A program made the translations under genes and the position numbers. Positions 489-64,000 of a stretch of 64,000 nucleotides of DNA are shown here, one piece after another. This DNA is from Thiomicrorhabdus lithotrophica. GTDB taxonomy: Bacteria; Pseudomonadota; Gammaproteobacteria; Thiomicrospirales; Thiomicrospiraceae. The stretch covers positions 1,488,001-1,552,000 of the forward strand of contig NZ_CP102381.1 in the NCBI RefSeq assembly GCF_029201445.1. The letters are read 5' to 3'. Within the stretch, counting starts at the first letter, position 1. Each line of letters opens with the position of its first letter. The notes under the pieces were generated by a model, which did no database searches, was not told where the DNA came from, and worked only from the letters and a program-made list of their open reading frames with translations.

Positions 489-812
489 TTCTCTAGTCCA
501 TCTTTAGAATTTCAAAACCCTATAATTTTACCACAATAATTTTTTATTGTTTTTAACAACAGGGCTGTTTTTACTTAATTTTTATGCCTGACACACATTT
601 ATGGTTTGTTACCAGGCCTGGTTATTTCAATATTTTCACAAAACCTTGTATTTCTCAATGAATCAAGTGAATTCATTAAGCAAATAGCGCTATAAAATGG
701 CATAATATTGCGTCCATTAAAAGTGAATCTTTAGCACTTCAATACATTGTACTTACTTTTAATTGAGATTAAATTAAACGCATACCCATAAAATGATGAT
801 TAAGGTTTCAAA
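489..812. other. Divergent intergenic region upstream of aroG
   Basis: This 324-base AT-rich gap between divergent genes contains no ORF or RNA that I recognise. It holds one exact copy of the 12-bp palindrome (611-622). TATAAA (691-696) and CATAAT (701-706) are possible -10 hexamers for aroG, but neither has a convincing -35. No TyrR- or leader-peptide-type attenuator was recognised. Confidence 0.5.
611..622. repeat. Palindrome ACCAGGCCTGGT, exact copy 1
   Basis: Perfect 12-bp palindrome between divergent genes, so it is not a terminator here. It is the first of ten exact copies in the window. Single-mismatch copies start at 6083, 16193, 20473, 29126, 35659, 39783, 40265, 46483, 46918, 47611 and 59097. 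Two-mismatch copies start at 16881, 23034 and 36951. Confidence 0.95.
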
Positions 813-1883
813 ATGACGCAGTATCAAACAGATGATTTACGCATCAAAAACATCACTGAAGTTCGCCCACCTCGTGAACTGCATGAGCAATACCCTCTAA
901 CTGAAGTAGCAGCGCAAACGGTTTATGATACACGTCAACAGATCCATAATATTTTAGCTGGAAGAGACGACCGCCTACTAGTTGTTATTGGCCCTTGCTC
1001 AATCCATGATACCAATGCGGCACGTGAATACGCCCAAAAGCTTAAAGAGCAAATTGAACATTACAAAGACACTCTATTAATTGTCATGCGCGTCTACTTT
1101 GAAAAACCAAGAACCACAGTTGGCTGGAAAGGTTTAATCAATGATCCTGAGTTAAATGAATCATTTGAAATCAACAAAGGTCTTGGTTTGGCTCGCGAAC
1201 TTCTTCGTGATGTTAACGACATGGGCGTTCCTGCCGCTACTGAGTTTTTGGATTTAATCTCACCACAATATATTGCTGACTTAATTTCATGGGGGGCTAT
1301 TGGCGCTCGTACAACAGAGAGTCAAGGCCATCGCGAATTAGCTTCAGGCTTATCATGTCCAGTTGGTTTCAAAAATGGAACTGATGGTGGCTTTACGATT
1401 GCAGTAGATGCTATTCGTGCAGCCAACAATCCACATATCTTTATGTCTATGACAAAAGATGGACACTCTGCAATCTTTGAAACGAATGGTAACGAAGATT
1501 GTCATGTAATCTTACGTGGTGGTAACGATGGTCCAAATTACGAAGCTAAATATGTTGCTGATGCCGTAAGCCAATTACAAAAAGCCAACGTTGAAGATAA
1601 ATTAATGATTGACTGTAGCCATGCAAACAGCAGTAAACAACACGAAAGACAGTTAATTGTTGCTGAATCAATTGCAGAACAACTTACCGAAGGGTCGCCT
1701 TATATTATGGGTGCAATGATTGAAAGCCATTTAATTGGTGGTCGCCAAGACGTTAACCCCGGACAACCATTAACTTATGGTCAAAGTATCACTGATGCCT
1801 GTGTTAACTGGGATGATAGTATTACTGCTCTAGAGACACTTGCCAAAGGTGTTGAAGCAAGAAGAATCCTTAACAACAAATAA
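813..1883 (+). CDS. aroG: 3-deoxy-7-phosphoheptulonate (DAHP) synthase, class I
   Basis: This 356-residue enzyme condenses phosphoenolpyruvate and erythrose 4-phosphate to DAHP, the first step of the shikimate pathway to aromatic amino acids. Class I (AroG/AroF/AroH-type) hallmarks are GPCSIHD (about residues 60-66), KPRTTVGWKG, GARTTESQGHRELASGL, VGFKNGTDGG, IDCSHANSSK and MGAMIESHLIGGRQD near the C terminus. The length matches the family. It is monocistronic, with an AAGG-like ribosome site and a strong terminator right after it. Which amino acid feeds back on it cannot be read from the sequence by eye, so the AroG name marks the family only. Confidence 0.95.
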   Translation: MTQYQTDDLRIKNITEVRPPRELHEQYPLTEVAAQTVYDTRQQIHNILAGRDDRLLVVIGPCSIHDTNAAREYAQKLKEQIEHYKDTLLIVMRVYFEKPRTTVGWKGLINDPELNESFEINKGLGLARELLRDVNDMGVPAATEFLDLISPQYIADLISWGAIGARTTESQGHRELASGLSCPVGFKNGTDGGFTIAVDAIRAANNPHIFMSMTKDGHSAIFETNGNEDCHVILRGGNDGPNYEAKYVADAVSQLQKANVEDKLMIDCSHANSSKQHERQLIVAESIAEQLTEGSPYIMGAMIESHLIGGRQDVNPGQPLTYGQSITDACVNWDDSITALETLAKGVEARRILNNK

Positions 1884-1910
1884 CCTAGTATAAGCAATGT
1901 ACTAAAATAA

Positions 1911-1950
1911 AAAGCCCGGTTTCTTTAATTAAGAAGCCGGGCTTTTTTTA
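1911..1950. terminator. Intrinsic terminator after aroG
   Basis: Long stem with an AGCCCGG/CCGGGCT core (1911-1925 with 1931-1945) and a T run to 1949. An A run on the left allows it to act on thiL as well, since the two genes converge. Confidence 0.92.
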
Positions 1951-1973
1951 TGAGTTAATGCGTGCAAATCTAT

Positions 1974-3029: not shown

Positions 3030-3046
3030 TGGCACTCTTTTTTTAC

Positions 3047-5916: not shown

Positions 5917-7065
5917 TTAATCCTTTGGAACTAGAATCAATCTAGCATCATCACCAAAACGATCCATAGACTGAATCGTTAAGTTTAATTTTTTGTCCAT
6001 ACTATCAAGTCCTGGCAAAACAAACATTGGTTTAGCTTCATTCCCCATTAAAGAAGGCGCAATAAAACAGTGTAATTCATTGACCAGGCCTGATTGCATA
6101 AATGCACCTGCAACAATTGCACCTGATTCAACCATAACATCATTAATTTGCTCTTCTTCTGCAAGGTAATGCAAAATTGATTCGATATCTAAATGGTCAT
6201 CTTCTGCCGAAACAGCAACCATCTCCACGCCTTGTGCATGAATTTCCTCGACAATTTCAGGACTACGTTCAGCAGTTTCACGTGATGTCATCAATATCGT
6301 CCTGCCTGGTAAACTCAACATTTTGGCATTCAAAGGCATACTTAAATTAGGATCTAATACAACACGAATAGGATGACAATTTTCTTGTGTTAAGTTCATA
6401 TCAGACAACTGTTGGTCAGTCAAACGTACAGTTAGACTCGGGTCATCCGCTAAAACGGTACCAATTCCTGTTATTAAAGCACCACAACGAGCTCGCATTT
6501 TATGGACTTCTAAACGCGATTCCTCACCCGTAATCCAATGACTTTCACCATTCGCCATCGCTGTTCTTCCATCTAAACTACTGGCAATTTTTAATCTAAC
6601 AAAAGGTAACTGCTTTTCCATCTTTCTAATAAACCCTAAATTGATTTGTCTAGCTTCAGACTCTAAAACACCCAAAACAACTGGAATACCAGCCTGCTCA
6701 ATACGCTCTATTCCCTGACTGGCGACTAATGGGTTAGGGTCTTGCATAGCAACGACAACTTTAGCCACTTTAGCCTCAATCAAACCATCAGCACAAGGTG
6801 GTGTTCGGCCAAAATGTGAACAAGGTTCCAAAGTTACATAGGCCGTTGCCCCCTCAGCATTAATGCCTGCCTGAGCCAGCGCAAGTCTTTCAGCATGAGG
6901 TTGACCCGCTTGCTGATGCCAGCCTTGACCAATAACCTGACCATTCTTCACCAATACACAACCTACTGCTGGATTTGGCTTGGTCGAATACAAACCTTTT
7001 CTAGCCAAATCAATGGCTTGTTGCATATAGATAATATCTTCATCGCTGTATTTAGAGCTAGTCAA
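5917..7065 (-). CDS. ribD: Bifunctional riboflavin deaminase/reductase
   Basis: RibD deaminates the GTP-derived pyrimidine and then reduces its ribose side chain. The 382-residue protein has a zinc deaminase domain at the N terminus (PNPAVGCVLV, then QPHAERLAL and EPCSHFGRTPPCADGLI, which together supply the His and two Cys ligands). A dihydrofolate-reductase-like domain starts near residue 150 (RLKIASSLDGRTAM, GESHWITGEESR). The start is a TTG at 7063-7065, chosen because a clear GGAG lies five bases upstream; the next ATG (residue 14) has no such site. It follows nrdR by 21 bases. Confidence 0.95.
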   Translation of the reverse strand: MTSSKYSDEDIIYMQQAIDLARKGLYSTKPNPAVGCVLVKNGQVIGQGWHQQAGQPHAERLALAQAGINAEGATAYVTLEPCSHFGRTPPCADGLIEAKVAKVVVAMQDPNPLVASQGIERIEQAGIPVVLGVLESEARQINLGFIRKMEKQLPFVRLKIASSLDGRTAMANGESHWITGEESRLEVHKMRARCGALITGIGTVLADDPSLTVRLTDQQLSDMNLTQENCHPIRVVLDPNLSMPLNAKMLSLPGRTILMTSRETAERSPEIVEEIHAQGVEMVAVSAEDDHLDIESILHYLAEEEQINDVMVESGAIVAGAFMQSGLVNELHCFIAPSLMGNEAKPMFVLPGLDSMDKKLNLTIQSMDRFGDDARLILVPKD

Positions 7066-7634: not shown

Positions 7635-7664
7635 TAAAAAACCACCAGGCCTGGTGGTTTTTTA
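7635..7664. terminator. Palindrome-based terminator downstream of glyA
   Basis: A perfect inverted repeat built around the 12-bp palindrome, with ACC/GGT added outside it, is flanked by an A run (7635-7641) and a T run (7658-7663). On the minus strand it forms a hairpin followed by T residues, about 70 bases after the glyA stop. It also works in the other direction. Confidence 0.85.
7644..7655. repeat. Palindrome ACCAGGCCTGGT, exact copy 2
   Basis: Exact copy forming the core of the glyA terminator stem. The symmetry extends three more bases on each side. Confidence 0.95.
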
Positions 7665-15957: not shown

Positions 15958-18900
15958 CTAACCAACCCACTTACGTGCGTTTCTGAATAAACGCATCCAA
16001 GGTGCATCCTCTTGCCATTCATCAGGATGCCAAGAATTTTGCACTGTTCTGAATACGCGCTCTGGATGCGGCATCATAATCGTAACACGACCATCTGGTG
16101 TAGTTAATCCAGTCATTCCAGCTTCCGTTCCATTTGGATTAAATGGATAAGTTTCTGTTGGTTGACCAATTGCATCAACATAACGCACACCCACCAGGCC
16201 TGCTACATCACTGGCAGATCCATTCCCAAAGTCCATACGTCCTTCACCATGGGCAACCGCAACAGGAATGCGTGTGCCTTCCATACCTTTTAGCAAAATA
16301 GATGGTGACTCCTGAATTTCAACTTGTGAAAAACGGGCTTCAAACTGTTCAGATTCATTGCGGACAAATGCAGGCCAATTTTCTGCACCTGGAATAATCT
16401 CTTTTAGATTTGATAGCATTTGACAGCCGTTACACACACCTAAAGTAAAGGTGTCATCTCGATTAAAGAAAGCTTCAAACTCTGAACGCGCCGTGTCATT
16501 AAATAAGATTGAGTTAGCCCAACCACGACCTGCTCCTAAAACATCACCGTAAGAGAAACCACCACAAGCCACTAAACCTTTATAGTCAGCAAACTTAACT
16601 TCACCTGATAAAACATCCGTCATGTGCACATCAATTGCATCAAAACCAGCTCGATCAAATGCAGCGGCCATCTCTTGCTGCCCGTTTACACCTTGTTCAC
16701 GCAAGATTGCAACCATTGGTCTTGGCTTACCTGCAAATTCAGCCGTAATATCATCATTAATATCAAAAGTCACCACTGGCGATATTTCAGTATTTTCTGA
16801 GTCTTGAATCGAATCAAATTCTTGTTTTGCACAATTCTCATTATCACGTAATGCTTGCATGCGATAAGAGGTCTCAGCCCACCAGGCCTGTAACTTTTTA
16901 CGCGGCATAGCTAACATTGTTTTGCCATGCGCATTAATCTGAATTTGATCTGAATCTGAAGGCGTTCCAATCCAATGAGACATTGAAGAAAGAGCATGCT
17001 TTTCAAGTACGGCTTCAACAGACGCTTTATCAGAAGCTTTAACTTGAATAACAACACCGACTTCTTCTGCACATAAAGCGGCAATCGCTTCTGAACCTAA
17101 AGCCGACACATCAATATCTAGACCACAATGACCAGCAAAAGCCATTTCTAGCAGAGTCACTAATAAACCACCATCAGCACGGTCATGGTAAGCGGTCATT
17201 AAGTCATTAGCCAACATATCTTGCGTTGCATTAAATAGGCTTAATAAATCTTCTGAACTATCTAAATCTGCCGAAACATCACCAATTTGATTGTAAACCT
17301 GAGCCAAACAACTTGCACCCACTCGGTTTTGACCTTTACCTAAGTCAATCACTAACAACTCACTGTCACCTAAATCAGTGCGCAACTGAGGTGTCACTGT
17401 TTTACGGACATCTTCAACTGGTGCAAATGTTGTAATGTTAACTGACATCGGAGAGATAACCGCTTTTGACTCTTTACCATCTTGCCAAACAGTTTTCATA
17501 GACATTGAGTCTTTACCAACTGGTACCGCAATACCTAAATCTGGACAAAGTTCTAATCCAACTGCTTCAACTGCGTCATACATCGCTGAATCTTCACCAG
17601 GGTGACCTGCAGCTGCCATCCAGTTAGCTGATATTTTAATATCGCTCATTTTTGAAATCTTAGCGCAAGCAATGTTTGTAATTGCTTCTGCGATAGAAAG
17701 ACGCGCTGAAGCTTTAGGATTAATTAACGCAACTGGAGGACGTTCACCAGAGGCCATTGCTTCACCTGTGTAGCCATTGTAATCAGCACAAGTTACCGCA
17801 GCGTTAGCTACCGGAACCTGCCAAGGTCCTACCATTTGATCACGTGTAACCATACCCGTAATACTTCTATCACCAATAGTAATCAAGAAGCTTTTGCTAG
17901 CAATGGTTGGTAACTTTAATAAACGTTCAGTAACATCATTAAAATCTAGATTAGCCGTTTCAAATCCTGCTTGAGGAATTAAGCGTGTTTCTGCTGTTCT
18001 GTGCATTTTAGGCGGTTTACCCAACAGAACGTTTAAAGGCATATCTACAGGATTATTATCAAATACCGTGTCATTTACAACCAACTCTTGTTCTTTGGTC
18101 GCTTCACCCACTACGGCATATAGACAACGCTCACGTTTACAAATCGCTTCAAACTGTTCAATTTTGTCTGGATGCACCGCAATAACATAACGTTCTTGAG
18201 ATTCATTACTCCAAATCTCCATTGGCGACATACCTGGTTCATCATTAGGTACAGAACGTAAATCAATACGCCCACCTTTACCAGCATCATTAACCAACTC
18301 AGGGAAAGCATTAGAAATACCACCAGCACCAACATCATGAATAGATGCAATAGGTGTTTCATCACCTAAATAAGTACAACGGTCAATAACTTCTTGTGCT
18401 CGACGCTCCATTTCTGGGTTTTCACGCTGCACAGAAGCAAAATCTAAAGCCTCTGAACCAGCACCCGTATCTACCGATGAAGCGGCTCCACCACCGAGAC
18501 CAATCAGCATTGCTGGACCACCCAGAATAACTAGCTTAGCGCCGACAGGAATATCGCCCTTCAGAACATGCTCTTCACGGATGCTTCCAAGCCCACCTGC
18601 CAACATGATTGGCTTGTGATAACCACGGACTTCTTCACCATCATGAGTGGTCATGGTATTTTCATAAGTACGGAAATAACCATTAATCGCAGGACGACCA
18701 AACTCGTTATTAAATCCAGCTGCACCAAGCGGACCTTCTGTCATAATTTCAAATGGCGTTACAATTCTTGAAGGTTTGCCATAATCACGCTCCCAAGGTT
18801 GCTTAAACCCAGGAATATTTAAGTTAGAAACGGTAAAACCAGTTAAACCAACTTTAGGCTTAGAACCTTTACCAGTTGCGCCTTCGTCACGGATCTCACC

Positions 18901-19913: not shown

Positions 19914-21035
19914 TTATTGAGTTAACAATCCAAGACTTTCGAAGATATAACGTCTTTGACTTTCATTTAACGGAACAACACCTTCAGGTGCTGCCACGGT
20001 AAGAATAACTTTTTCAGCATCTGATTCAGACTGCGTTAATTTTAACTTAACTAAATCAGGTAAGGCTTTTTTACCTGAATCACGCCAGAAAGCTAAACTC
20101 GACATAAAAGAATCATCTTCTTTAACCGTCTTAGGAACTTGAACCCATAATTCATTATGCGAAGCCTTAACTTTGTCAATTGACCAACTAGCACGATAAA
20201 TCATTGCTTGTAAATAGCTCCAACTCTTATCCATACTTGATCTAAACGCAAGTCCTTCTAGCTCTTCACCTTCAACAACTTCAACCATCTGTTCAGTGAT
20301 TTTTAATTGCGCTAAAGCTTTTTCACTACTTGAACCAAAGAAAACCATTGCTTGATACAAAGCCTGAGCTTCCATTACCGGGTTATAAGGCTTAATACGC
20401 CACTGTCGATCAATCTCTCTAGCCTCATTAGCATCAGGAGAATACAGTTCACTGTGATTGATATAAACTCTTACCAGGCCTGTTACTGGATCAGTTTCAA
20501 CACGTGAAGTGTATTTATCATAAACTCCATCCGCTAACTCTGGGCGCCAGCTATTTAACATTCTCGTGATAGGCCCTACATCATCTAACGGTACTAATTC
20601 GGTACGCGCCAAATAATCAGTTTTCATGACTCCAATATCTTTACGCTCTTCTGAAACAGTGAATCCAGTTGAGGCGTAGAAACGTTTTAAGCTTGCCCAA
20701 ACTTGCTCACTATTGGTTGATTCAATCTCTAACCAACGTTCAGAAAGATTACTTTTAATCGCCAAACCCTTTGCTTTAAAGTTTGGAATGTAATCAAATT
20801 TATCTTGCTCAGCTAATGCGTCTTGTTCTGCTTTTTTTAAGGCTAAAGATATCTCTGTCTGTGGTTTGGCAGGATTAAATAAATTTGGCGGCATTTCAAG
20901 CGTCTTAACTAATTTACCTTCACTGTCTCTGTAACTCCCATCAGAACCAAACATATTAGAAATAGTTGAACACCCGCTTAGACTTAACGCTACAACAGAC
21001 GTAGACAATACAAACGTTTTTGCATAAAGACGCAT
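19914..21035 (-). CDS. bamC: Outer membrane assembly lipoprotein BamC
   Basis: BamC is a lipoprotein of the BAM complex that inserts beta-barrel proteins into the outer membrane. The 373-residue product starts with a lipoprotein signal (basic start, hydrophobic run, lipobox LSGC at about 19-22). Next comes the unstructured segment that binds BamD in known structures ([10 protein letters not shown]). Two helix-grip domains follow (about 90-210 and 250-373). Position downstream of dapA is conserved in gammaproteobacteria (dapA-nlpB in Escherichia coli). Only 35 bases separate the two genes, so cotranscription is likely. Confidence 0.92.
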
Positions 21036-22665: not shown

Positions 22666-24072
22666 ATGACAAATGAATCCAAACGTTTATTTATCCTAGA
22701 CACCAATGTTCTAATGCACGACCCGATGGCTCTATTCAATTTTGAAGAGCATGATGTTTTTATATCAATGACCGTTTTAGAGGAACTTGATGCTGGAAAA
22801 AAAGGTATGTCTGAAGTTTCTCGAAACGTGCGTGAAACTAACCGCTTAATTGACCAAATCATTAGTGATGCGAGCTTTGAAGATATTAAAGCAGGTCTAC
22901 CGATAGAACGAATTCATCCAAACCCAGGCCAAGACTCACTGCATCTAGGCAAGCTTTTCTTTGAAACTGAACCATTATTTGCAACACTTCCTGACTCTCT
23001 TCCAAGCCATAAAGCAGACAACCACATACTGCAAACAGGCCTGGCTTTAAAGGAAAAATACAGTAACCGCAATGTGACTTTAGTTACTAAAGACATCAAT
23101 ATGCGCATTAAGTCCTCCACCGTTGGCCTCCATTCAGAAGATTACTATAATGACCGCGTTTTAGAAGACGCTGACTTGCTCTATACCGGCTGGGAATATC
23201 TTGAAGCCAACTTTTTTGAGAAGCACGGCAATACAATGAAATCTTGGCAGGAAGGTAGCCGGACATTTTATGAACTTAATATCGATGACAATTGCAAATG
23301 GTATCCAAACCAGGGCTTAATCAGCCAAAATGATGCGGGATTTAACGCCATAGTAAGAGAGGTTCATAATGGCAAAGCCATCCTTGAATACATGCAAGAC
23401 TTTGAAAACCCAAACCACTCTATTTGGGGGATTGCCGCCAGAAACAGTGAACAAAACATTGCTTTAAATTATTTAATGGATCCTGATATTGATTTTGTCT
23501 CTTTACTTGGTATAGCAGGTACAGGTAAAACCTTATTAACTCTTGCCGCCGCTCTTGAACAAACATTAGACCAAAATCTCTATACTGAAATCATTATGAC
23601 TCGTGCAACTATCCCAGTAGGCGAAGACATTGGATTCTTACCAGGTACTGAAGAAGAAAAAATGACTCCTTGGATGGGCGCTTTAATGGATAACTTAGAA
23701 GTACTAACCGAGTCAGATGGTTACACCGACTGGGAAAAAGAAAGCACGCAACAACTACTCAGTAAACGTATTAAAATTAAGTCAATGAATTTTATGCGCG
23801 GTCGCACATTTCAAAAAAAGTTCATTATCTTGGATGAAGCACAAAACTTAACACCTAAACAGATGAAAACACTCATCACTCGTGCAGGGGAAGGAACCAA
23901 AGTTGTTTGTCTAGGAAACATTGGACAAATTGACTCTCCCTACTTAAGTGAAACAACAACTGGCTTGACGTATGTTGTTGATCGCTTTAAAGATTGGACA
24001 CACAGTGCACACATCACTCTTCAACAGGGAGAACGCTCAAGACTTGCTGAATATGCATCCGATAATCTATAA
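22666..24072 (+). CDS. PIN domain-PhoH family ATPase
   Basis: The 468-residue protein joins a PIN ribonuclease domain (about 1-150; FILDTNVLMHDPMAL, KADNHILQTGLAL, VTLVTKDINMRIKS supply the acidic cluster) to a PhoH ATPase domain (about 240-468). The ATPase has Walker A GIAGTGKTLLTLAAAL and Walker B KFIILDEAQNLTPKQMKTLITR. PIN-PhoH proteins of this type (YlaK/PhoH2-like) are thought to unwind and cut RNA. Family membership is clear; substrate and physiology are not. A strong GGAAA site precedes the ATG, and a good terminator follows. Confidence 0.92.
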   Translation: MTNESKRLFILDTNVLMHDPMALFNFEEHDVFISMTVLEELDAGKKGMSEVSRNVRETNRLIDQIISDASFEDIKAGLPIERIHPNPGQDSLHLGKLFFETEPLFATLPDSLPSHKADNHILQTGLALKEKYSNRNVTLVTKDINMRIKSSTVGLHSEDYYNDRVLEDADLLYTGWEYLEANFFEKHGNTMKSWQEGSRTFYELNIDDNCKWYPNQGLISQNDAGFNAIVREVHNGKAILEYMQDFENPNHSIWGIAARNSEQNIALNYLMDPDIDFVSLLGIAGTGKTLLTLAAALEQTLDQNLYTEIIMTRATIPVGEDIGFLPGTEEEKMTPWMGALMDNLEVLTESDGYTDWEKESTQQLLSKRIKIKSMNFMRGRTFQKKFIILDEAQNLTPKQMKTLITRAGEGTKVVCLGNIGQIDSPYLSETTTGLTYVVDRFKDWTHSAHITLQQGERSRLAEYASDNL

Positions 24073-37728: not shown

Positions 37729-40700
37729 ATGAAATGGCTTAGACATTCAGGCTTATTTATTGCGGTTACATTACTTATCGTAACCAGCATCTACCTGTTT
37801 ATGTATTTTTGGGTGCAAAACAGCCTTAAAGAACAACAAATCACTAACCTGTCTTGGCAAATAGAATCAATTTCTACACAGAGTTCAGAAATCGCATTGA
37901 TAGAATTCACCTACCAAGATCAATTCAAGATACAAATTAAAAACCTTACCGCTACTTGGAATATCGCAAAAAACAGACAAATATTAGAATCGATTGATAT
38001 CGAAGCGCTGTCTATAAAAAATAACCCAGGCTTTATTTCACTTAAAACTCCAAACAATCACAAAGCCAGCTTGAATAATTCACTAAATTCGATAATCAAT
38101 TTAATTAAACAGAGTACTGAAGCGGAGAAGCTGAAAACAGACTCTAATCTTGTAAGCTCCCTAGCTTATATACCTCAAATAATTAGTGTAAAAGGCATCC
38201 GCTATAGCCAACCTTGTTTTCAAGATGCAAATACACAAGTAAATAAACTCGAAAATGATGCTGAATTGAGCTGTGCCGTTAATGCCAATTTTCATTGGCA
38301 AACTCAGCTTATAGAGAACCAACTCAAAAGTAGCGTAAAATTTAACCTGCAAGAGTCACGCACACCTGAAATACGGGTTAACAGTGAAATCAATCTCGAA
38401 GCCCAAGTTGCTAATTTACAACTCTCCGAGACTCAACTGAAAAGCTCTCTTAACTTAAACGCCTTATCCTCTAACGAAACTCAGTCGTTGTTTAACATTG
38501 AAATGCAAAACCGATTAACCTCATCTGAGCCGAACAACTTACGTAGCTCAGTCAAGGTCAGAACGGCTTCAGAGATTAAAAACCAACACTTTACTCAAAC
38601 GTTAGAGCAACTCAATTCTATTCATTTTTCTTGGCTGGGTTCAAGTTTACCGATTAACTTATCAAAACTCTCCAATACGGCATTAAAATCAGTTCAAAAC
38701 AACGCAATGCCCAATATACAATTAACCATAAATAGTGAATTCAACTTAGAACCTTTATACAGAGCCAATCAAACAAGTGATTTACTAAACAGATTACTTA
38801 AACAAGTCAATTTAGATGCGAAACTGTTCGCGGACATTGATCAACCTATCACAGTAAACAAGTTTGGTGATTTTTCAGGAAACCTCCAAGCTGAAACCAA
38901 ACTTAATCAAGGTTTTATAAATCATTACACCTTTAAAAGTGAAGGTACGGTTTTACCTTCACTAAATTCAGTCATCTCAACTCAAGCTGAAAAGTATGGT
39001 GTTCAACTGCCAGGCTTAAGGTTCAGCATCCAAAGCTCTGATAATGTCAATCTAGCTATTTCAAATCCTTTATCCATTCAGGCTTCACTTCCCATTAAAG
39101 CTAAGCTATCAAGCTTTATTTTGGAAAATACTCTCCCTATAAATAAGCGTCATTCGCGTACCGAATTTAATGCCAATATGTTAGCTAACATAGAGTTAAC
39201 CGAACTTAAGCTTGTTATTTCATCTGCAACGTTGGAGTTAAAAACACCGATTATTAAAATTAATAAAACAACGCTCCTAACTAATACCGCTGCCCAATTA
39301 AACTTATCCGGTTTTGCTAATGAAAATGATTGGAATTTCCATTCGAGCAAAGGTTTTATAAATACAGCTATCCAAACTAAGGATTTATCACTCAAACAAG
39401 GAAACTTAACTTGGCAAGATATACAATTGGCTAAAGCTGACTCCGTAAGAACAGAAAAAAATAACAAACTATCGATTATTAAATCTTCTGCAAAATCTCT
39501 GAATATAAAAGGCAATATCACCCATAAACTAGCTCAAGTAGAGTCAGTCAATTTAAGTTTAAGACAGGCCAAATTAGAACCTATTTATTATCAGAAACCA
39601 GAACTTGAAAACAAATTCCAGGCTTATCAATTCAGCACACGTTACCAGCTACAAACGGCCAAATTAAAACAACCTAACCTTATTCCACAGTCCTGGAAAC
39701 TTTTAGGCAAGTTAAAAGCACAGTATTCACCCAAAGCTAACAGCATTCTTGATTTAAATGCGCAAGGCAGCATTTCAAACAAAGCAGGCCTGGTAGCTTT
39801 TCATAATGCGTTTTATTCACCCAAACAAATTTATAGTGATTGGGAAATACCTCCTATTTACTTTTTAGCAGGGAACAGCCTTCAAAAAACGTTTAAAGAC
39901 TGGCCTAAATTGCTTACATTCGGTAGCGGAACGCTTCAAGCTAAAGGAACCAGCAAATACAATTTAAGCTCACTGAAAAAAGCAGAGCGCTGGCAAGATA
40001 AACTCTATACTCAAGCTGAAATTTCAAGCAATAAAGTCAGTGGAATTTTTAATGAAACGACGATTAATCAATTAACTAGTGAAATACAGATAAATCTAAA
40101 CAAAACCAACCTCACTGCCAAACTACCTGAACTTAAAATAGTTCAAATTAATCACGGTGTTATTGCGGGGCCAATCGAATTTAAGGGTGAATACCAAGCA
40201 TCGCTTAACCAGTTAACTCAAGGTAAGCTAAATTTACATACGGCTAAAACCGATTTATTCAATGGCCAGGCCTGGTTAAATGCACAGCTGTTTGATTTTA
40301 GTCAACCCTTTTTAAGCAAACTACACCTAAGCAATCTAGACCTTCACGCTTTATTAGAACAATACCCCTCAGCCGACATAAAAGGATCTGGCAAAATTAA
40401 TGGCGAACTACCCTTTAAAGTTAATTTACTTAAAAAACCTTATTTAACCTTGCCTGAAGGATTTATAAAGGCAAAAGCACCTGGTGGTCAAATAAAATAC
40501 CAACCGACTTCTGCAGGGTTAAAACAAACCCATCAAAGCATGAAGCTGATCATGAATGTTTTAGAGGACTTCCACTACTCGTTATTAAACAGCAATATAA
40601 GCTATGGCGATGACAATAAACTTCACCTAAAACTCTCATTACAAGGTAACAACCCTGCAGTTGAAAATGGTCGACAAGTCAATTTCAACATTCAATTAGA

Positions 40701-46430: not shown

Positions 46431-46624
46431 AAAAAACGGCAATAATTCCTTTTTCACTTTTGTATTTCTACAATCAATTGTTACCAAGCCTGGTCATAAA
46501 ATTTTGAACACTAATACATATTAATTTTTATTTAATCTTACTATTGCCAACCTTATTAAGCCGCTTTTGCTAAACTAAACTTTATTAATAAAACGATTCA
46601 CTAACGCCGCTTTAAGGAATTGTA

Positions 46625-47845
46625 GTGGAAAATAATACGCCTTTAAAACGCACGCTTTCTCTGCCTCAAATGATTCTATATGGATTAGGCACAACCATTG
46701 GTGCAGGGATTTATGCTTTAGTTGGAGAGCTTGCAGGTATTTCTGGCTACTTAGCACCTGCTGCTTTTTTATTTGCAGCCCTTCTTGCTGGTTTAACCGC
46801 ACTTTCATTTGCTGAACTTTCTTGTCGTTACCCACGTGCGGCAGGTGCTGCCTTGTATACTCAACAAGGCTTTCACTCTCATAAGCTCACCATTATTGTT
46901 GGCTTATTGGTCATTACAGCAGGCCTGGTATCTTCTGCCGCTTTAATTAATGGCTTTTCTGGCTATTTAAATCACATTACTACCTTGGACCGTTCAACCT
47001 CAATTATTATCGTCAGCCTATTTTTAATTGGAATTGCCGTTTATGGCATTGCTGAATCTATCTTCTTAGCATCTCTAATTACCGTCATAGAAGTTGGAGG
47101 ATTAGTTTGGATTATCTTTGTAGGCCATGACGCATTAAACCAATTGCCTGAAATTGGAAGCTACATGATTCCTGACTTTACATTAGCTAGCTTTGGCGTT
47201 ATTTTTGCCGGGGCACTGCTCGCTTTTTATGCCTTTATTGGATTTGAAGACATGGTTGATGTGGCTGAAGAAGTGGAAAATGTAAAACGTAATTTACCGC
47301 TTGCCATTCTCTTTACGCTAGGAATCACCACCCTGCTTTATATGCTCATCATGGTGATAGCAGTCGCCTCTATGCCTCCTGAAGAACTTGCTCAAAGCAA
47401 AGCCCCTCTTGCAACCTTATTTACATTTCATACTGGCCAACCCGCTACCATTATTTCAATGATTGGTATGCTCGCAATTATAAACGGCTCGCTTATCCAA
47501 ATCATTATGGCTTCTCGCGTTATTTATGGTTTGAGTTCTCGCCATCAATTGCCTGCCGTTTTGAGCTATGTAAACCCTAAAACACAAACGCCCATCATTG
47601 CGACAGTCTTAGCAGGCCTGGTAGTTTTACTTTTAGCTTTAATTGGTCACTTATCAACCCTGGCTGAAATAACCTCATTTATAATGCTAATGGTTTTCTC
47701 TTTAGTCAATCTTGCTTTATGGCGTATTAAAAGGCATGAGCCAGATCCTGAAGATTGCATCATCTTTCCTCAGTGGATCTCGTTACTCGCTTTTCTTGTT
47801 AGCTCAGGTTTTGTGATACTAGAAATCACCAAAGCAATCATTTAG
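46625..47845 (+). CDS. APC-superfamily amino acid permease
   Basis: The 406-residue inner membrane protein has about 11-12 predicted helices. The APC signature is in the first helix (LYGLGTTIGAGIYALVGELAG), followed by PRAAGAALYTQ and the central FAFIGFEDMVDVAEEVENVKR-like region (AFYAFIGFEDM). Sequence alone points to an amino acid or amine transporter; the substrate is open. The start is a GTG with AAGGA upstream. Two one-mismatch palindrome copies (46918 and 47611) lie in the gene. The next gene, an SDR, starts 67 bases later. Confidence 0.9.
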   Translation: MENNTPLKRTLSLPQMILYGLGTTIGAGIYALVGELAGISGYLAPAAFLFAALLAGLTALSFAELSCRYPRAAGAALYTQQGFHSHKLTIIVGLLVITAGLVSSAALINGFSGYLNHITTLDRSTSIIIVSLFLIGIAVYGIAESIFLASLITVIEVGGLVWIIFVGHDALNQLPEIGSYMIPDFTLASFGVIFAGALLAFYAFIGFEDMVDVAEEVENVKRNLPLAILFTLGITTLLYMLIMVIAVASMPPEELAQSKAPLATLFTFHTGQPATIISMIGMLAIINGSLIQIIMASRVIYGLSSRHQLPAVLSYVNPKTQTPIIATVLAGLVVLLLALIGHLSTLAEITSFIMLMVFSLVNLALWRIKRHEPDPEDCIIFPQWISLLAFLVSSGFVILEITKAII

Positions 47846-47912: not shown

Positions 47913-48677
47913 ATGAAACAACAAACTGCACTCATAACAGGTGCCTCAACAGGCATTGGTAAAGCCACCGCGCAAAAACTCGCCACAGAAGGCGTAAAGC
48001 TCATTCTTCTGGCTCGTAGAGAGCCGCTTTTAAAAGCGCTGCAAAACGAGCTTTTAAACTTAACCGAGTGCCATATTATAAGCTGCGACATTAATGATCA
48101 TGAAACACTCATGGCAGAACTACAAAACCTTCCTGAGAGTTTTAAAGAAATTGATATTTTAATTAATAATGCAGGCTTGGCATTAGGCTTAAACCCTGCA
48201 CATGAAACAGATTGGCTGGACTGGCAAACCATGATTCAAACGAACTGTTTGTCTTTAGCATTTTTAACAAGACAAATCCTACCAGGCCTGGTAGAACGTA
48301 ACCATGGCCATATTATCAATATTGGATCAATTGCTGGTAGTTACGCCTATAAGGGTGCCAATGTTTATGGTGCAACCAAGGCGTTTGTTGAACAGTTCTC
48401 TAGCAACCTACGTTCTGATCTATTAGGGTCAGCAATACGGGTAACCAATGTCGAACCAGGCATGTTAAATGAGAGTGAGTTTTCATTAGTACGCTTTAAA
48501 GGTAATGAAAATAGAGCTAATGACGTTTACCAAGGCTTAACGCCACTTAACTCAGAAGATGTCGCAGAAACCATTCGATGGATACTCGCACAACCATCAC
48601 ATGTTAATATTAATCGCATTGAAATCATGCCTGTACACCAGGCTTTAGCAGGGCCGACTACCATCAAAAACCTCTAG
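47913..48677 (+). CDS. ydfG: Short-chain dehydrogenase, YdfG-like
   Basis: The 254-residue protein has the Rossmann motif TGASTGIGKATA, NNAGLALG, the catalytic Ser in NIGSIAGS and YGATKAF (Tyr and Lys). Close agreement with Escherichia coli YdfG runs through NNAGLALG, LPGLVERNHGHIINIGS, NVEPGML and RFKGNENRA. YdfG reduces malonic semialdehyde and oxidises serine or 3-hydroxy acids with NADP. An exact 12-bp palindrome falls in the gene and encodes LPGLV, matching the conserved LPGMV of relatives. Cotranscription with the permease upstream is possible. Confidence 0.9.
   Translation: MKQQTALITGASTGIGKATAQKLATEGVKLILLARREPLLKALQNELLNLTECHIISCDINDHETLMAELQNLPESFKEIDILINNAGLALGLNPAHETDWLDWQTMIQTNCLSLAFLTRQILPGLVERNHGHIINIGSIAGSYAYKGANVYGATKAFVEQFSSNLRSDLLGSAIRVTNVEPGMLNESEFSLVRFKGNENRANDVYQGLTPLNSEDVAETIRWILAQPSHVNINRIEIMPVHQALAGPTTIKNL
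48281..48292. repeat. Palindrome ACCAGGCCTGGT, exact copy 6
   Basis: Inside the SDR gene, in the frame that encodes Pro-Gly-Leu. Flanking T and A extend the symmetry to 14 bp. Confidence 0.95.
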
Positions 48678-51215: not shown

Positions 51216-51354
51216 GGCTTAACAAAGCTATTTTAATGAATCAATATTAACTTCATAATACATCGGTCTAGATGCAGTAATATTTCTAGCATAAAGGTCT
51301 AAGTTTGCTAAAATTTAACTAGGTTTACCTCAAACTGTTGCGGAGTTGTTTCAG

Positions 51355-53249: not shown

Positions 53250-56200
53250 CCCTTTCCAAACTAGCGATTAGCAAACGTTTCGTAGAATGGCTTTTGATAG
53301 GCATTTTAAGTCTTATGCTATTGATAACCGTACTTCTAACGGCTGTGGTAAGCCTAGCACTATGGCATACCAATGCTACGACCAGCATATTGCCCTATCT
53401 AAGCCAATGGACCGATGGACAACTCCAAATCGAATCAAGTGAAGGTCGGTTAATTGATGGCTTAACGCTTCAGAATATCCGTTTTAAAAATGAATCTATG
53501 GCATTAGAAATTCAAAAGGTTACATGGAAATGGCAACTTTCCCAGCTATTCAATCGTCAAATTCATTTTGAAAAACTACACCTAACCGAGACAAAACTAC
53601 GATTAATTTCAGACGAAAAACAAGAAAATAAGTCTTCCAACACAGCCCCTTTTGAAGTGGCTAGACTTCTGGGTATAACGATTAACATTGATGAATTTAA
53701 AGCATCACAAACGAGCTTAGAATTTGATAACGACTCGCCTGTTGTAATTACCCATTTGAGTAGTGAAGTTAAATGGAAAAAACACGTTCTCAACCTTAAA
53801 AACTTGATTACAGATTATCAACAATACCAATTACAAGCCAGTTCAAAGATCGAAATTTTAAGTGCAGATGAATTTAAAGGTAATCTAAAACTTAAAATAT
53901 TAGGTCATGAACAATTTCCAGATATCCGACTAGTTTCAGATATGGAAGGTAGCTTAAAACAACTTAAATTTAGTTTAGATACGCATAAGCCATATAGAAT
54001 GCAATCTGTTCACACACTGACACTAGAGGAGAGTCTTTTAAAATTAGACTCCCAATGGAAAGCTTTGAGCGCAAACTTAAGTGAGCAATGGAAGATAGAG
54101 CAAGTTCAAGGAAATACTTCTTTAGTTTACAACCAAAACTCTCAACAGGTTTATAGCAAAGGAACAGTTAAGCTTGATTTAGCCGATAAACCACAAGTTC
54201 AGTTTGACTACCAAGGTGACTATTCTACAAAAGGCATTGTCACTTTTGATATCAATGCCCTAACTAGTCAAATGGGAAGTGTACACGCTCAAGGCCAAGC
54301 CAATAGTCGCAACTCAACAATAAACATAGATGTAAGCACCAAACACTTAAACTTGCAGTGGCTTGCTCCAGCTTTAAACTATCAAATAAACAGCAATTTC
54401 AACTGGTTGCTCACCGACTTTGAAAAACGCCAAAGCAAATTGAATATTAAACAGTTTGATTTAGCCGGTTTGCCAGAAGCGTTGGCTTTTAATGGCTTGT
54501 TAAACACCCAGCTCAATGCACAATCAAAATATCTGATTAAAATTGAATCTGGCAAATTGAAATATGCGTCACACAAAGGAAAGCTCAACGCAAACATTAC
54601 CCTTAATCAAGCGCTCTCCGAAGTTAATATCCACAATGCAAAACTCAATGTAGGCGATAACCAAATTGACCTTACTGGAGAATGGAATAAAACGTTTAAT
54701 CTAACCTTAAATGGCAAACTCAGACGTCTCGAACAGCTATACAAACCATTATCTGGCAAAATCAACTTTAGCCTAAACTCTAAGGGTAGCTTAGATATAG
54801 AGTCAAATGGGTTTGACCAGGCCTGGTCAAACTTAACACTCAAAGCTGAACAATTAAAATACCAAAAATCTACTATTCAGAGTAATGAAGTTTTCAGTTT
54901 AAATAGCTTTAAACTCGATGCGACGGTTCCTCTTCATAAACCAGAGTGGACTACCGCCAACCTCATAGCGAAAGACCTTACACAAGACTCAAATACACAA
55001 CAAAACAAAAACTTATTCAGCCGATTAGAATTAAATCGCCAAAAAATTCAAAAAGGGCTAGAGAGTAAATTTAAAATAACACACCCCGAAATCAGCATTA
55101 AAGCTCAAACATTTGAGTCTAGCCCCTCTTTTAAACAGCAAAAAATTGCATTGAATCGATTGGATATAACTCAACCTTTAACAGGTAACTGGCATCTTAA
55201 AAAACCGAGTACGATAGATTGGAAAGCCCCCTACCAATTTAATGCGCCAGAAACTTGTTTAAACTCCGACCAAAAAAAACAAGCACAGTTCTGCTTTGAA
55301 GCCCAAAACAATCAAGCCAAATGGTCGTTACAATCCCTACCGTTCTTTAACTGGATTCAACCTTGGTTAAGCGAATCGGTAAACCTTCAAGGACGTTTGA
55401 ACGGTGAAGGTTCTGCAAACTGGAAACACGACTTAAACCTACAACAAACTCTGACACTACCGCAAATAGATATCACAATAACGGAACAAGGCTATAAGAT
55501 TCCTATTTTGATTAGGAACTGGCAAACAGAAATCAAGCTTGCTAACAATAAGGCACAATTAACCAGTCAGGCAAAAATAAATGAAACGGGTAGTTTATGC
55601 ACTGAAATAAATGCACTAAACAAACTAGACTGGGCAGCAGCTAAATTAGACGGCGATATTCATCTTCAAATTAATGAATGGCCATTAAGTAAAGGTGTAC
55701 TAGAAATACTGGAATTCAACAAAACTGAATTAAGCTTAGATTCAAAACTTTCTGGCAGGCTAAATGCATTACAGCACGACACGCAAACTACAGCAAAGTT
55801 CAATCTAAACTTGCCATTATTAGGTTTGAATAATCAGGCTTTTGATCTAAACGCTAAACTGACTACCGATACCATAGATGCTAAGGGCACTTGGCGCCAA
55901 ACTGAACAACGCCAAGCAGACTTGTCTGTCAAGCTTACAAATTTAAAAACCCAACCAAAACTGATTGCGATTTTTAAAACCGATACAATTGAACTGCTTC
56001 AGACCGAGTTTGCCCACCTAAATACCTCGGCTAATATGAGTGTGACTTTAGCAGAGAATTCGACTCATATTCAAGGCCGTGCAACACTGCACAACAGTAA
56101 CTTAAACCTAGATGCTATGCCCTTACATGAAAGAACTCAAACAAGTGATGATGAGGTTCTCATTAACGAGAAAGGAGAAATTGTACAAAAGCCAATTTCT

Positions 56201-56940: not shown

Positions 56941-56952
56941 ACCAGGCCTGGT
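56941..56952. repeat. Palindrome ACCAGGCCTGGT, exact copy 8
   Basis: Lies 20 bases after the tamB stop. Flanking T and A extend the symmetry, and a short T run follows at 56956-56959, so it could double as a weak terminator. Confidence 0.95.
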
Positions 56953-58428: not shown

Positions 58429-58440
58429 ACCAGGCCTGGT
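58429..58440. repeat. Palindrome ACCAGGCCTGGT, exact copy 9
   Basis: Starts four bases after the hydrolase stop codon. Partial outer pairing (AAAC with GGTTT) makes a longer imperfect hairpin that may act as a 3' end structure. Confidence 0.95.
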
Positions 58441-58818: not shown

Positions 58819-59472
58819 ACTCATCAGCAAAACACAAGAAAAACAAGGTCACTTTAATTCAATTAAACTGACGTAAAGGTTGAAATAACCACTTTATTTC
58901 GGCCTGTCTTTTTAATTTTATAAACGTTATATCTTACTATTCAATATAAATGCCAATAGCCTCATCTAAATAATTCGCTTCAACAAGCTTTCATCAAAAT
59001 CAAGCCATTTAAAATTTCTAACCACAACTGAAATTTGTGTGTCTTTTTCTGAAAGCTAACCCATAAACTGCAAGCCTAGAAAGGCAAGTCTATCCGAACA
59101 GGCCTGGTAAGTTCCTTTAAAACAGCAATAAGCGAATTAAGCCTAGTCTTACCAAATAAGATTATCAGACACTTTAAATTACACTTAGTAGACTTGAAAT
59201 CGACGTCTGCAAATGGCATCAAGAGTGCGCTATCACGCTGTGATTGAGCTTATTTTTCGCTTTTACCAGGCTTAAAAGATTACCAAATTAATGAATCTTA
59301 TATCACTTATCTTTACATTTAGAATCATTTAACGCACTACTTTAGCTCAAAAATAATAAAAAACACCCTGTTTAAAACTTTTATTTTTATAACATTTTAA
59401 TAAAAATAGAATTTATTTTTATGGTCTATTTTATGCTTATTTTACTTAAATTTATAACGCTTCGGATACACA
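58819..59472. other. 654-base gap upstream of the amt-GGDEF gene, no gene recognised
   Basis: AT-rich sequence with many stops in all frames. It contains one one-mismatch palindrome copy (59097-59108) and a half-like copy near 59265. I looked for a c-di-GMP riboswitch (GEMM) and a sigma-54 promoter and found neither. It may hold a long 5' leader or an unannotated small RNA, but nothing in it can be named. Confidence 0.5.
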
Positions 59473-62050: not shown

Positions 62051-62212
62051 ATGAATCTAATCAAAAACTTAACAATATTCAGCCTATTAATTCTAATTTT
62101 AACGCTTAGCGGTTGCTCCATTCCCGATCTTCCTGGCCCAATCGGTATACCTGGTATTGAAATACAACCTTTGTCTGCAGATCTTCAACAGGATTCCTTA
62201 TTAGACTCTTAA
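62051..62212 (+). CDS. 53-residue lipoprotein
   Basis: ATG 62051 is preceded by GGAG with suitable spacing. The product has a basic start (MNLIKNL), a strong hydrophobic stretch and a lipobox LSGC, then a short Pro/Gly/Ile-rich mature part of about 32 residues (SIPDLPGPIGIPGIEIQP). The pattern resembles small outer membrane lipoproteins but I recognise no family. It is divergent from the DUF2058 gene and 130 bases upstream of rbgA. Confidence 0.68.
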   Translation: MNLIKNLTIFSLLILILTLSGCSIPDLPGPIGIPGIEIQPLSADLQQDSLLDS

Positions 62213-62342
62213 ACTGTTAACTTACTCTTTATATCTAGTCGTAGTGGTGCGGTAGTTTGCCAAGACAAAGCAAAGAATAGAACTTAATCAAACACGTAAC
62301 ACGCTATAATCCACACTATTAAGCGTATTTGAGGAATATACA

Positions 62343-63287
62343 ATGGGCATACAATGGTATCCAGGTCACATGCACAAAGCTCAAAAAGAAGTGCGTGAAA
62401 TATTTAGCCAAGTAGATGTTTTTATAGAAGTCTTGGATGCTCGCATCCCATTTAGTAGCCAGAACCCATTGATTGAAGAGATTCGTCAAGACAAGCCGAC
62501 TATTAAAATCCTCAGTAAAACCGATTTAGCTGACCCTGCTATCACTGAAGTATGGCAAGCTCATATGGAAAAAGAGTCTAGCGTTAAGACCCTAGCCTTT
62601 AACACTCAAAATTCTGATAAACGTGAACAACTTCTTAGCCTTATCAAAAAAATGGTACCTGAAAAACTAGGAACCGTTAAAACGATTCACGCCTTGATTA
62701 TAGGGATTCCAAATGTTGGGAAATCGACCTTAATCAATAGCATTACAGGCCGTACCATAGCAAAAACTGGTAATGAACCCGCTGTAACTAAAAACCAACA
62801 GCGTATTAAGTTAGAAGACAATATTACTCTAATCGATACTCCTGGTATGTTGTGGCCAAACATTGAAAATGAAAATAGCGGTTATCGTTTAGCGATTACT
62901 GGTGGAATCAAAGAGACGGCATTTGAGCTACCAGATATTGCCTCTTATGCAGCGGAATATATGCTTGAAGCCTATCCTGAAAAGCTTAAGGAGCGTTTTA
63001 ATCTTAAAGAACTGCCAGACACGGACATAGAGCTGTTAGAAGCAATTGGTCGCCAACGCGGTTGTTTAGTTGGTGGTGGTCGCGTCGATTTAGATAAAGT
63101 TTCTCGTATTTTCATTGTTGAGTTCCGTGACAACATCATTGGAAACCTCTCTTTAGAAACCCCTGAAATGATCGCAGAAGAACTGATTCAAGTTGAGATT
63201 CAACGCAAGCTTAAAGAAGAGAAAAGGCTGGCGCGTGAAGAGCTAAAGAAACAACGTCGCGCTCGTCATAAAAAGAATAAACGCTAA
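62343..63287 (+). CDS. rbgA: Ribosome biogenesis GTPase, YlqF/RbgA family
   Basis: This circularly permuted GTPase assists late assembly of the large ribosomal subunit. In the 314-residue protein the motif order is G4 (SKTDLAD, about 60) before G1 (GIPNVGKSTLIN, about 122-133) and G3 (LIDTPGM, about 160). The N-terminal WYPGHMHKAQKEV and EVLDARIPFSSQNP are typical of YlqF. The C-terminal domain ends in a very basic Lys/Arg tail, suited to rRNA binding. A GAGG site precedes the ATG. The next gene starts 18 bases after its stop, so the two are probably cotranscribed. Confidence 0.94.
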   Translation: MGIQWYPGHMHKAQKEVREIFSQVDVFIEVLDARIPFSSQNPLIEEIRQDKPTIKILSKTDLADPAITEVWQAHMEKESSVKTLAFNTQNSDKREQLLSLIKKMVPEKLGTVKTIHALIIGIPNVGKSTLINSITGRTIAKTGNEPAVTKNQQRIKLEDNITLIDTPGMLWPNIENENSGYRLAITGGIKETAFELPDIASYAAEYMLEAYPEKLKERFNLKELPDTDIELLEAIGRQRGCLVGGGRVDLDKVSRIFIVEFRDNIIGNLSLETPEMIAEELIQVEIQRKLKEEKRLAREELKKQRRARHKKNKR

Positions 63288-63305
63288 GGAATTGAGGTTG
63301 TAGAC

Positions 63306-64000
63306 ATGCTGAGTTATTTACACTCGTTTCACGCTGGAAACTTTGCAGATGTTCTAAAACATAGCATTAGCACGCATATTTTAGGCTACCTAACGGATAA
63401 ACCTAAGCCAGTATTTTACCTAGACACCCACTCAGGTACAGGCGCATTTTCATTACAAGATAACGAAGCTCAAAAAACGCAAGAGTACTTAAACGGCATT
63501 GCCAAACTTTGGGAATTGCCTAAATCTGAAATTAAAGAACTACCAGGCCTGGTTAAAGATTACCTAGAACTCATCAAAGATTTTAATTTAACAAACGATT
63601 TACAAACTTATCCTGGTTCACCCTGGTTTGCTAAGGCAATCTTGCGAGAGCATGACCGTATATCGCTTTTTGAGTTGCACCCAAGAGAATTTAAATCTTT
63701 ATTGCAAAACATTCGTGGTGACAGACGTATCAAGGCCTTTCAAAAAGATGGCTTTCACGCATGTATGAGTCAACTGCCACCAAAGGAGCGTAGAGGCTAT
63801 GTTTTGATGGACCCTCCTTACGAGGTTAAGCAAGACTATCAAACTGCTACAGACACCTTAATTAGGGCTCACGACAAGTTTGCAACAGGAACCTATGCGC
63901 TTTGGTACCCGGTTGTTGACCGTTACCGTATTGATAAAATTGAAAAAGATTTTATAAAAAGCGGTATTAAAAATATTCAGTTATTTGAATTGGGGATTGC
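63306..64000 (+). CDS. rlmJ: 23S rRNA adenine-N6 methyltransferase RlmJ, cut by the window end
   Basis: RlmJ methylates A2030 of 23S rRNA. The visible 231 residues begin LSYLHSFHAGNFADVLKH, the family hallmark. They contain YLDTHSGTGAFSL (SAM binding), FELHPREF and the catalytic YVLMDPPYEVKQDY. The C-terminal part lies beyond the window. An exact 12-bp palindrome is inside the gene, encoding LPGLV. The gene follows rbgA by 18 bases, so both ribosome-maturation functions probably share a transcript. Confidence 0.94.
   Translation, partial: MLSYLHSFHAGNFADVLKHSISTHILGYLTDKPKPVFYLDTHSGTGAFSLQDNEAQKTQEYLNGIAKLWELPKSEIKELPGLVKDYLELIKDFNLTNDLQTYPGSPWFAKAILREHDRISLFELHPREFKSLLQNIRGDRRIKAFQKDGFHACMSQLPPKERRGYVLMDPPYEVKQDYQTATDTLIRAHDKFATGTYALWYPVVDRYRIDKIEKDFIKSGIKNIQLFELGI
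63542..63553. repeat. Palindrome ACCAGGCCTGGT, exact copy 10
   Basis: Inside rlmJ, in the Pro-Gly-Leu frame, at a surface-like segment between conserved motifs. Confidence 0.95.

Follow-up and report, generated by a model that had tools for sequence, protein, structure and literature searches.

The 12-mer ACCAGGCCTGGT and its flank are probably one dialect, the local one, of a signal for DNA uptake (self-recognition) in the bacterial family to which Thiomicrorhabdus lithotrophica belongs. This candidate signal is likely convergent with the USS of Haemophilus and the DUS of Neisseria, and none was found described for the family in the open literature searched. In the window, the whole stretch of 64,000 nucleotides that was analysed, ACCAGGCCTGGT occurs ten times exactly and 27 times with up to two mismatches, compared with a mean of 0.96 and a largest value of 4 matches in 100 dinucleotide shuffles. 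The ten exact and eleven one-mismatch copies of the preliminary description are all found where it had placed them, and its three two-mismatch copies are real, although the total of this class is six. These 24 copies are:

611..622, exact; intergenic, flanked by divergent ORFs
6083..6094, one mismatch; inside CDS 5917-7065 (-), aa 326
7644..7655, exact; intergenic and terminator-like, its symmetric arms being long (AAAAAACCACCAGGCCTGGTGGTTTTTT); 3' of CDS 7731-9023 (-) by about 85 bp
16193..16204, one mismatch; within purL, aa 1234, where several relatives have CAGGCCTG
16881..16892, two mismatches, CAGGCCTG intact; within purL, aa 1005, with the codons CAG GCC TGG shared by relatives from three genera
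20473..20484, one mismatch; inside CDS 19914-21035 (-)
23034..23045, two mismatches, CAGGCCTG intact; inside CDS 22666-24072 (+)
26973..26984, exact; in CDS 26194-27471 (-), aa 165, with the own dialect of G023 at most three codons away
27662..27673, exact; in CDS 27468-28688 (-), aa 341
29126..29137, one mismatch; inside CDS 28780-30087 (-)
35659..35670, one mismatch; inside CDS 34423-35775 (+)
35791..35802, exact; symmetric arms, flanked by convergent genes
36951..36962, two mismatches, CAGGCCTG intact; inside CDS 35819-37183 (-)
39783..39794, one mismatch; inside CDS 37729-40797 (+)
40265..40276, one mismatch; inside CDS 37729-40797 (+)
46483..46494, one mismatch, core broken (ACCAAGCCTGGT); past CDS 44049-46430 (+)
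46918..46929, one mismatch; inside CDS 46625-47845 (+)
47611..47622, one mismatch; inside CDS 46625-47845 (+)
48281..48292, exact; inside CDS 47913-48677 (+)
54816..54827, exact; inside TamB-like CDS 53246-56920 (+)
56941..56952, exact; directly 3' of TamB-like CDS 53246-56920 (+), flank GGTAAATTTT
58429..58440, exact; directly 3' of CDS 57739-58425 (+)
59097..59108, one mismatch; flanked by CDS 57739-58425 and 59473-61308 (150-aa ORF list)
63542..63553, exact; 3' of CDS 62343-63287 (+), coding under a 90-aa ORF call with open ends

As had been claimed, half of the exact copies are intergenic (5/10 by a simple ORF call), six of the ten extend symmetrically to at least 14 bp with flanks judged by eye (7644, 26973, 35791, 48281, 54816 and 56941), and the central AGGCCT is intact in all but one of the listed copies (23/24); among all 27 matches it is broken at 28964, 29778, 46483 and 48455.

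The 2.52-Mb genome contains 454 exact copies of ACCAGGCCTGGT and none of the reversed control, while 0.06-1.3 copies are expected from Markov models (orders 1-4) that were fitted to a 464-kb sample. This comparison had been named beforehand as the test that could refute the iteration; the excess stands, and a local cluster or a Markov effect is thus rejected. The sample, on which the own-genome site statistics rest, consists of the window and a further 20 stretches, each 20 kb long (464 of 2516 kb), and holds 90 exact 12-mers and 175 CAGGCCTG with full flanks. The core is sharp, with one-substitution neighbours at positions 1-6 counted 13, 44, 0, 0, 1 and 1 times in the sample, both halves pooled. 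Among the first 100 copies listed for the own genome, the longest gap measures 36.6 kb and contains rpoBC, tuf and ribosomal genes, so that a foreign island behind it is rejected, a point against the uptake reading. ACCAGGCCTGGT stands in no paper of the open literature searched, and nothing on it was found by title or start of abstract among the matches listed, in agreement with the preliminary description, which knew of no account.

Among relatives, 62 genomes of the order (one family) were compared; 27 of them contain 84-718 copies of ACCAGGCCTGGT, versus 0-5 copies in each of 365 genomes of other families sampled from the class. A 21.8-kb locus of the cultured relative Thiomicrorhabdus arctica DSM 13458 has five exact copies and eight CAGGCCTG; the named relatives are Thiomicrorhabdus. 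The high-copy state clusters on a purL tree of 57 of the 62 genomes (G004, G034, G059, G072 and G079, with purL in pieces, were left out), with five changes versus a shuffled mean of 19.1, a test that used the copy number of the 12-mer and not each dialect. Relatives with 0-2 copies have other words (G020, G004 with three sites in 22 kb, G023, G063, G064, G068 and G069), and in G005, G008, G017 and G025 the outer bases are changed; about seven spellings occur within one family. The dialects are built alike, with a GC-rich core that usually contains CCTG and is followed by a T-tract, exemplified by ACCCGGCCTGTT.AGTTTT, TTACCGGCCGGTAA, CCCA(A/G)CCTGGCAGATTTT and CCACCCCTGGCGATTTTT; CCTG is present in every spelling except that of G023 (CCGG). 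Seed counts of dialects include chance matches, most for the 7-base seed of G069. At flank positions 6-9, T has a frequency of 0.45 in the own genome, with a background of 0.30, and of 0.53-0.76 in another seven rows of the CAGGCCTG type, compared with 0.40 in G018 (background 0.27), 0.30 in G062 with G036 (background 0.24) and 0.28 in eight g5 genomes (background 0.27). The AT-rich tract, strong in most genomes read, is therefore not general, since some of the family, namely G062 with G036 and the eight g5 genomes, is close to background.

For 24 of the 62 genomes no motif was found, many of them sampled in 8-40 kb only; this class includes stretches of G034, G059 and G072 without a scan for other words, and G002, which has six exact copies and three CAGGCCTG in 14 kb. 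No convincing word emerged from spaced-seed scans of G003, G012, G024, G019, G026 with G013, and G031, and TGCCGGTAA was rejected as the word of G003, as it has no fixed flank. Decayed relics were likewise rejected, the near-matches in G003, G024, G019 with G026, G031, G012 and G064 being no more than 30 shuffled palindromes give in their range. Since G064 was later found to have another word, failure to find one in 60-100 kb says little about the other genomes.

Within genes, constraint acts on DNA rather than on protein, as had been proposed, which is seen in the codon choice at purL 1005, where 16 of the 18 genomes encoding Q-A-W use CAG GCC TGG; the exceptions are CAA GCT TGG in G003, which has no motif found, and CAG GCA TGG in G017, and the high-copy genomes G015, G007, G027, G018 and G033 have other codons here. 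Many sites are not kept across relatives; at the site in CDS 26194-27471, for instance, G009 has Cys and no motif. In some genes, words of different dialects nevertheless reappear at or close to one position: seven of twelve switched-dialect in-gene sites are within eight codons of an CAGGCCTG site of other genomes, with 0.64 expected, four of the seven being one site in one gene, and the count kept G020 seed matches at places unlike its motif.

Three other explanations have to be weighed against an uptake signal, which among the roles offered in the preliminary description fits best. An abundant short GC-rich palindrome with tolerant outer bases and alternate forms is known as HIP1 of cyanobacteria (PMC4390886), and a HIP1-like element that owes its origin and maintenance to a DNA methyltransferase and methylation-dependent repair bias, with the dialects as alternate HIPs of other methyltransferases, would agree with the palindrome in most motif-bearing genomes, with the great number of copies and with single-base deviations at outer positions. 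This explanation is unlikely, as the words of G020, G004, G063, G064, G068 and G069 are non-palindromic, and because of these six dialects the palindrome is also less well supported as the essence of the site than had been assumed. Moreover, of the two methylase families searched, C5 methylases (PF00145) were found in 9/27 and N4/N6 methylases (PF01555) in 11/27 high-copy genomes, and both were unfound in 11/27, nine of these being at least 99% complete; either family as common factor was rejected, and the suggested methylation role loses support for this reason. Copies throughout the genome, conserved across genera, would fit sites bound by a protein that organises the nucleoid or chromosome and that changed its specificity from species to species. 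However, the first 100 listed copies are spaced nearly at random (99 gaps, mean 6157, sd 6327 bp), so that organising sites at regular intervals gain no support, several genomes have no motif found in 60-100 kb, and such a protein does not predict the excess of arms at gene ends described below, which together make this reading improbable.

Intergenic copies (n = 44) prefer gene ends, the density per kb being 1.39 between convergent and 0.52 between divergent genes, and their arms are extended (2.41 versus 1.06 shuffled, 0/2000 as high); four inverted-pair stem-loops were found in three relatives, G063, G064 and G068. Such arms and pairs would suit a REP-like element or a palindrome that spreads by itself, and also a word that acts simply as a transcription terminator. 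REP elements are known as extragenic. Here, 46 of the 90 sampled copies are in coding sequence, with arms that are not extended (0.70 versus 0.53, p 0.12), and some same-position gene sites differ in dialect between species, which element copying does not predict, so that this explanation is improbable too. Under an uptake signal, gene-end copies could have been co-opted as terminator hairpins.

ComEC, the sole competence gene searched, exceeds the cut-off in all but two of the 38 motif-bearing genomes (36/38), which speaks for the uptake reading, and also in 16 of 24 without motif found, which speaks against it; Fisher's test gives p 0.0097 for the full set and 0.0015 at completeness of at least 95, but p 0.57 (0.2 at completeness of at least 95) without two deep clades. 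ComP_DUS (PF16732) is over cut-off in none of the 62 genomes, with weak matches in six, and GspH (PF12019) was found in three, so that a receptor by family search was rejected. Pilin-like proteins with a PCPDTDGDG-type motif are present in 61 of 62 genomes irrespective of the motif, those of the own genome being encoded at 2.03 and 2.33-2.36 Mb, and among the pilin-like clusters inspected in 22 genomes none stood out as a receptor tracking the dialects.

A short motif in hundreds to thousands of copies, far above expectation, dialects that track phylogeny and keep the core, and inverted pairs or hairpins at gene ends are features of uptake signals that are all found here. The USS of Pasteurellaceae is described as having a high copy number, a short GC core followed by AT-rich sequence, inverted pairs, and dialects tracking phylogeny in two types (PMC12616744). 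The present candidate signal shares high copy number, inverted pairs and phylogeny-tracking dialects, and AT-rich downstream sequence in part of the family only. Unlike the USS, it belongs to another family, has CAGGCCTG or its dialects as core, with no spelling containing the USS core GCGG, and comes in about seven spellings rather than two types. The DUS of Neisseriaceae likewise has several dialects on the species tree (PMC3630211) and inverted pairs (PMC12616744), and its inner CTG compares with CCTG here (except in G023), whereas the sequence is otherwise unlike. Unlike USS and DUS, the core is palindromic in most genomes.

We infer that natural transformation would involve a surface receptor, perhaps type IV pilin-like, that binds the core and thereby favours DNA of the same dialect in uptake and recombination; such a bias, if recurrent, would then create and preserve copies, replacing mutated ones, within and between genes. 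Slightly more probable than not is a third, independently evolved family of uptake signals, in sulfur-oxidising bacteria, with a palindromic core that would be bindable in either orientation, at least seven spellings in one family, some old sites respelled in place and a reader that may be pilin-like and unrelated to ComP. If true, a third family with many close dialects provides an independent case for the origin of uptake specificity, for how receptor and signal change together and for whether biased uptake or selection spreads such words.

Islands with atypical DUS content have been described (PMC7371117). In line with the uptake reading, an 83-kb gap in G036, of which 80 kb were read, contains four CAGGCCTG including the flanking copy and, in the one stretch examined for genes, a TrwC relaxase and an integrase-core protein; this gap is a motif-poor mobile island.

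The 12-bp palindrome ACCAGGCCTGGT, which the preliminary description held to lie far over chance, is found in the window in 10 exact, 11 one-mismatch and 6 two-mismatch matches, against a mean of 0.96 for the three classes together in the shuffled window. The excess holds genome-wide, as the single contig of T. lithotrophica (2,516,205 bases, the window spanning 1,488,001-1,552,000) carries 454 exact copies where Markov models (orders 1 to 4, trained on 464 kb of this genome) predict 0.06 to 1.3, and the reversed pattern, taken as a control, has 0 copies. SoxB, PurL and EttA, each matched above its NCBIfam cut-off, are encoded in the window, as are TamA- and TamB-like proteins that stay below these cut-offs, the former with relatives of 63-66% identity in Thiomicrorhabdus sp. 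NP51, Thiomicrorhabdus arctica DSM 13458 and a Thiotrichales MAG.

Among 175 occurrences of CAGGCCTG with full flanks in the 464-kb sample, both outer GT halves are present in 90, one in 63 and neither in 22, while independent halves would by hand calculation predict about 84 with both and about 16 with neither. With both halves of ACCAGGCCTGGT pooled, 13 single-substitution neighbours differ at the outermost position and 44 at the second, whereas positions 3 to 6 have 0, 0, 1 and 1; the core is therefore CAGGCCTG, with tolerant outer bases. In coding and intergenic copies alike, the sequence outside the 12-mer favours A, followed by A or G, any base, and then T's.

By simple ORF calls, 90 sampled exact copies divide into 46 coding and 44 intergenic ones in a sample that is itself 88% coding. 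The intergenic density peaks at 1.39 per kb where genes converge and falls to its lowest, 0.52, where they diverge, and the palindrome arms of intergenic copies extend past the 12-mer by a mean of 2.41 bp versus 1.06 bp with shuffled flanks (0 of 2000 shuffles as high); no such extension was detected for coding copies (0.70 versus 0.53, p 0.12). Four inverted motif pairs in three relatives (G063, G064 and G068) form long perfect or near-perfect stem-loops. At 51186-51205 of the window, a terminator-like hairpin, AGCCTGG-loop-CCAGGCT, stands ahead of the TamA-like gene and resembles split motif halves.

The spacing of the first copies in the genome is close to random (first 99 gaps, mean 6157, sd 6327). 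Since the largest of these gaps, 36.6 kb, holds tuf, rpoB and rpoC (confirmed by Pfam) and ribosomal-protein genes (named by eye), constraint also keeps copies out. Among the copies listed for the relative G036 there is an 83-kb gap, 80 kb of which were read:

G036 contig C1, 209-289 kb (loci L125-L128): motif-poor stretch

It holds four CAGGCCTG, one of them within a flanking exact copy, and the single 20-kb stretch in which genes were identified encodes a TrwC relaxase (confirmed by Pfam), an integrase-core protein, a Fic protein and an RTX calcium-binding-repeat protein; it is probably a mobile island.

In the order (62 genomes, one family by database labels), 27 genomes carry 84-718 exact copies of ACCAGGCCTGGT, four carry 16-38 and 31 carry 0-6, and outside the family each of 365 genomes sampled from the class (369 genomes, 4 of them in the family) has at most 5. 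The high-copy state requires 5 changes on a quick, midpoint-rooted purL tree that covers 57 of these genomes, versus 19.1 in shuffles. This state fills all eight genomes of genus g5 included in the tree, g5 being sister to the group of genera g1, g3 and g6, and parts of g6, g3 and g1, and ACCAGGCCTGGT is therefore probably ancestral to this group. In relatives with few or no copies, K-mer scans recovered other words of the same build, here called dialects:

Dialect words and the genomes that carry them
G020, also 3 sites in G004: ACCCGGCCTGTT.AGTTTT
G023: TTACCGGCCGGTAA
G063: CCCAGCCTGGCAGATTTT
G064 and G068: CCCAACCTGGCAGATTTT
G069: CCACCCCTGGCGATTTTT
G008: AGCAGGCCTGCT with a T-tract
G005, G017 and G025: CAGGCCTG with varied outer bases and a T-tract

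Their seed density is 0.13-0.38 per kb (0.38 in T. lithotrophica), and the words of six dialect genomes are non-palindromic. Together with the 27 high-copy genomes, the motif-bearing total is 38; in the other 24 of the 62 no motif was found, several of these being thinly sampled. Most of the genomes read have a strong T-tract, but it is weak in G018 and about background in G062 with G036 and in eight g5 genomes. In G028 and G016 (loci L144 and L146), repeated runs of at least 7 C, often with A/T tracts beside them, such as aaaatttctCCCCCCC, are possibly another dialect.

Some motif sites persist while their spellings change. When 95 in-gene CAGGCCTG sites from 29 genomes were placed on the window genes, 5, 7 and 8 of 12 switched-dialect in-gene sites lay within 4, 8 and 12 codons of a CAGGCCTG site, versus 0.35, 0.64 and 0.92 expected; shared ancestry inflates these counts, though neighbouring codons vary, and four of the seven coincidences within 8 codons are one place in the gene at 28780-30087 (-), where the CAGGCCTG site comes from G033. 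At purL codon 1005, Gln-Ala-Trp is encoded in 18 of 36 readable rows, in 16 of them as CAG GCC TGG, which spans three genera down to 70% PurL identity; G003, in which no motif was found, writes the same protein CAA GCT TGG, and G017 has CAG GCA TGG. Counter-examples are the high-copy G015, G007, G027, G018 and G033, with other residues there. In the gene at 26194-27471 (-), the Trp of CAG GCC TGG is replaced by Cys in G005, G025 and G008, with CAGGCCTG kept and the outer bases different, and in G023 the word of that genome lies no more than 3 codons from this site; as a counter-example, G009, which shares the dialect of T. lithotrophica, also carries Cys, without the motif.

The motif described here combines a dense short word, a sharp core, a T-tract in many genomes, dialects, terminator pairs and tolerance within genes. 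As this set matches the descriptions of the uptake signal sequence (USS) of Pasteurellaceae and the DNA uptake sequence (DUS) of Neisseriaceae (PMC12616744, PMC3630211), ACCAGGCCTGGT and its dialects are proposed as a candidate DNA-uptake signal, as which the motif words would act. Of the roles named in the preliminary description, uptake is thus the one favoured, whereas methylation has lost ground: the chief rival, a palindrome like the cyanobacterial HIP1 tied to methylation, is weakened by the non-palindromic dialect words and by 11 of the 27 high-copy genomes, which have no match to either methylase family searched (C5, PF00145; N4/N6, PF01555). ACCAGGCCTGGT was not found in the open literature by full-text search, and no paper there mentions both Thiomicrospira and either an 'uptake signal sequence' or a 'DNA uptake sequence'; for Thiomicrospira and 'palindrom', none of the 20 matches listed out of 24 concerns such a word by title, and the 10-mer CCAGGCCTGG does occur, in 49 papers, the 20 listed being by title on other topics. 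The novelty of the word is provisional, because this literature lacks bioRxiv preprints altogether and the bulk of subscription papers.

Reading the words as uptake signals has real weak points. Confidence in this reading is slightly lowered by the near-background T-tract in part of the family and by the counter-examples at the purL and 26194-27471 sites. ComEC exceeds the cut-off in 36 of the 38 motif-bearing genomes and also in 16 of the 24 others (Fisher's p 0.0097, or 0.0015 at completeness of at least 95, related genomes not being independent), and without two deep clades the association has a p of 0.57 (0.2 at completeness of at least 95); no protein of the type of ComP, the DUS receptor pilin, lies over the cut-off in the 62 genomes. 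On G020 contig C1, ComEC matches in two pieces on one strand (50689-51309 and 88072-89325), about 37 kb apart, as if split by insertion or rearrangement despite the dialect word in this genome. In G031, which is 99% complete and has one exact 12-mer, neither a motif nor a ComEC match over the cut-off was found. The T. lithotrophica genome encodes many pilin-like proteins at 2.031-2.038 and 2.328-2.346 Mb (loci L120-L122), and a PCPDTDGDG-type motif occurs in several of them; a profile from six of them gives at most 15 matches per genome and is present in 61 of the 62 genomes, and these proteins are candidate pilus or receptor parts.
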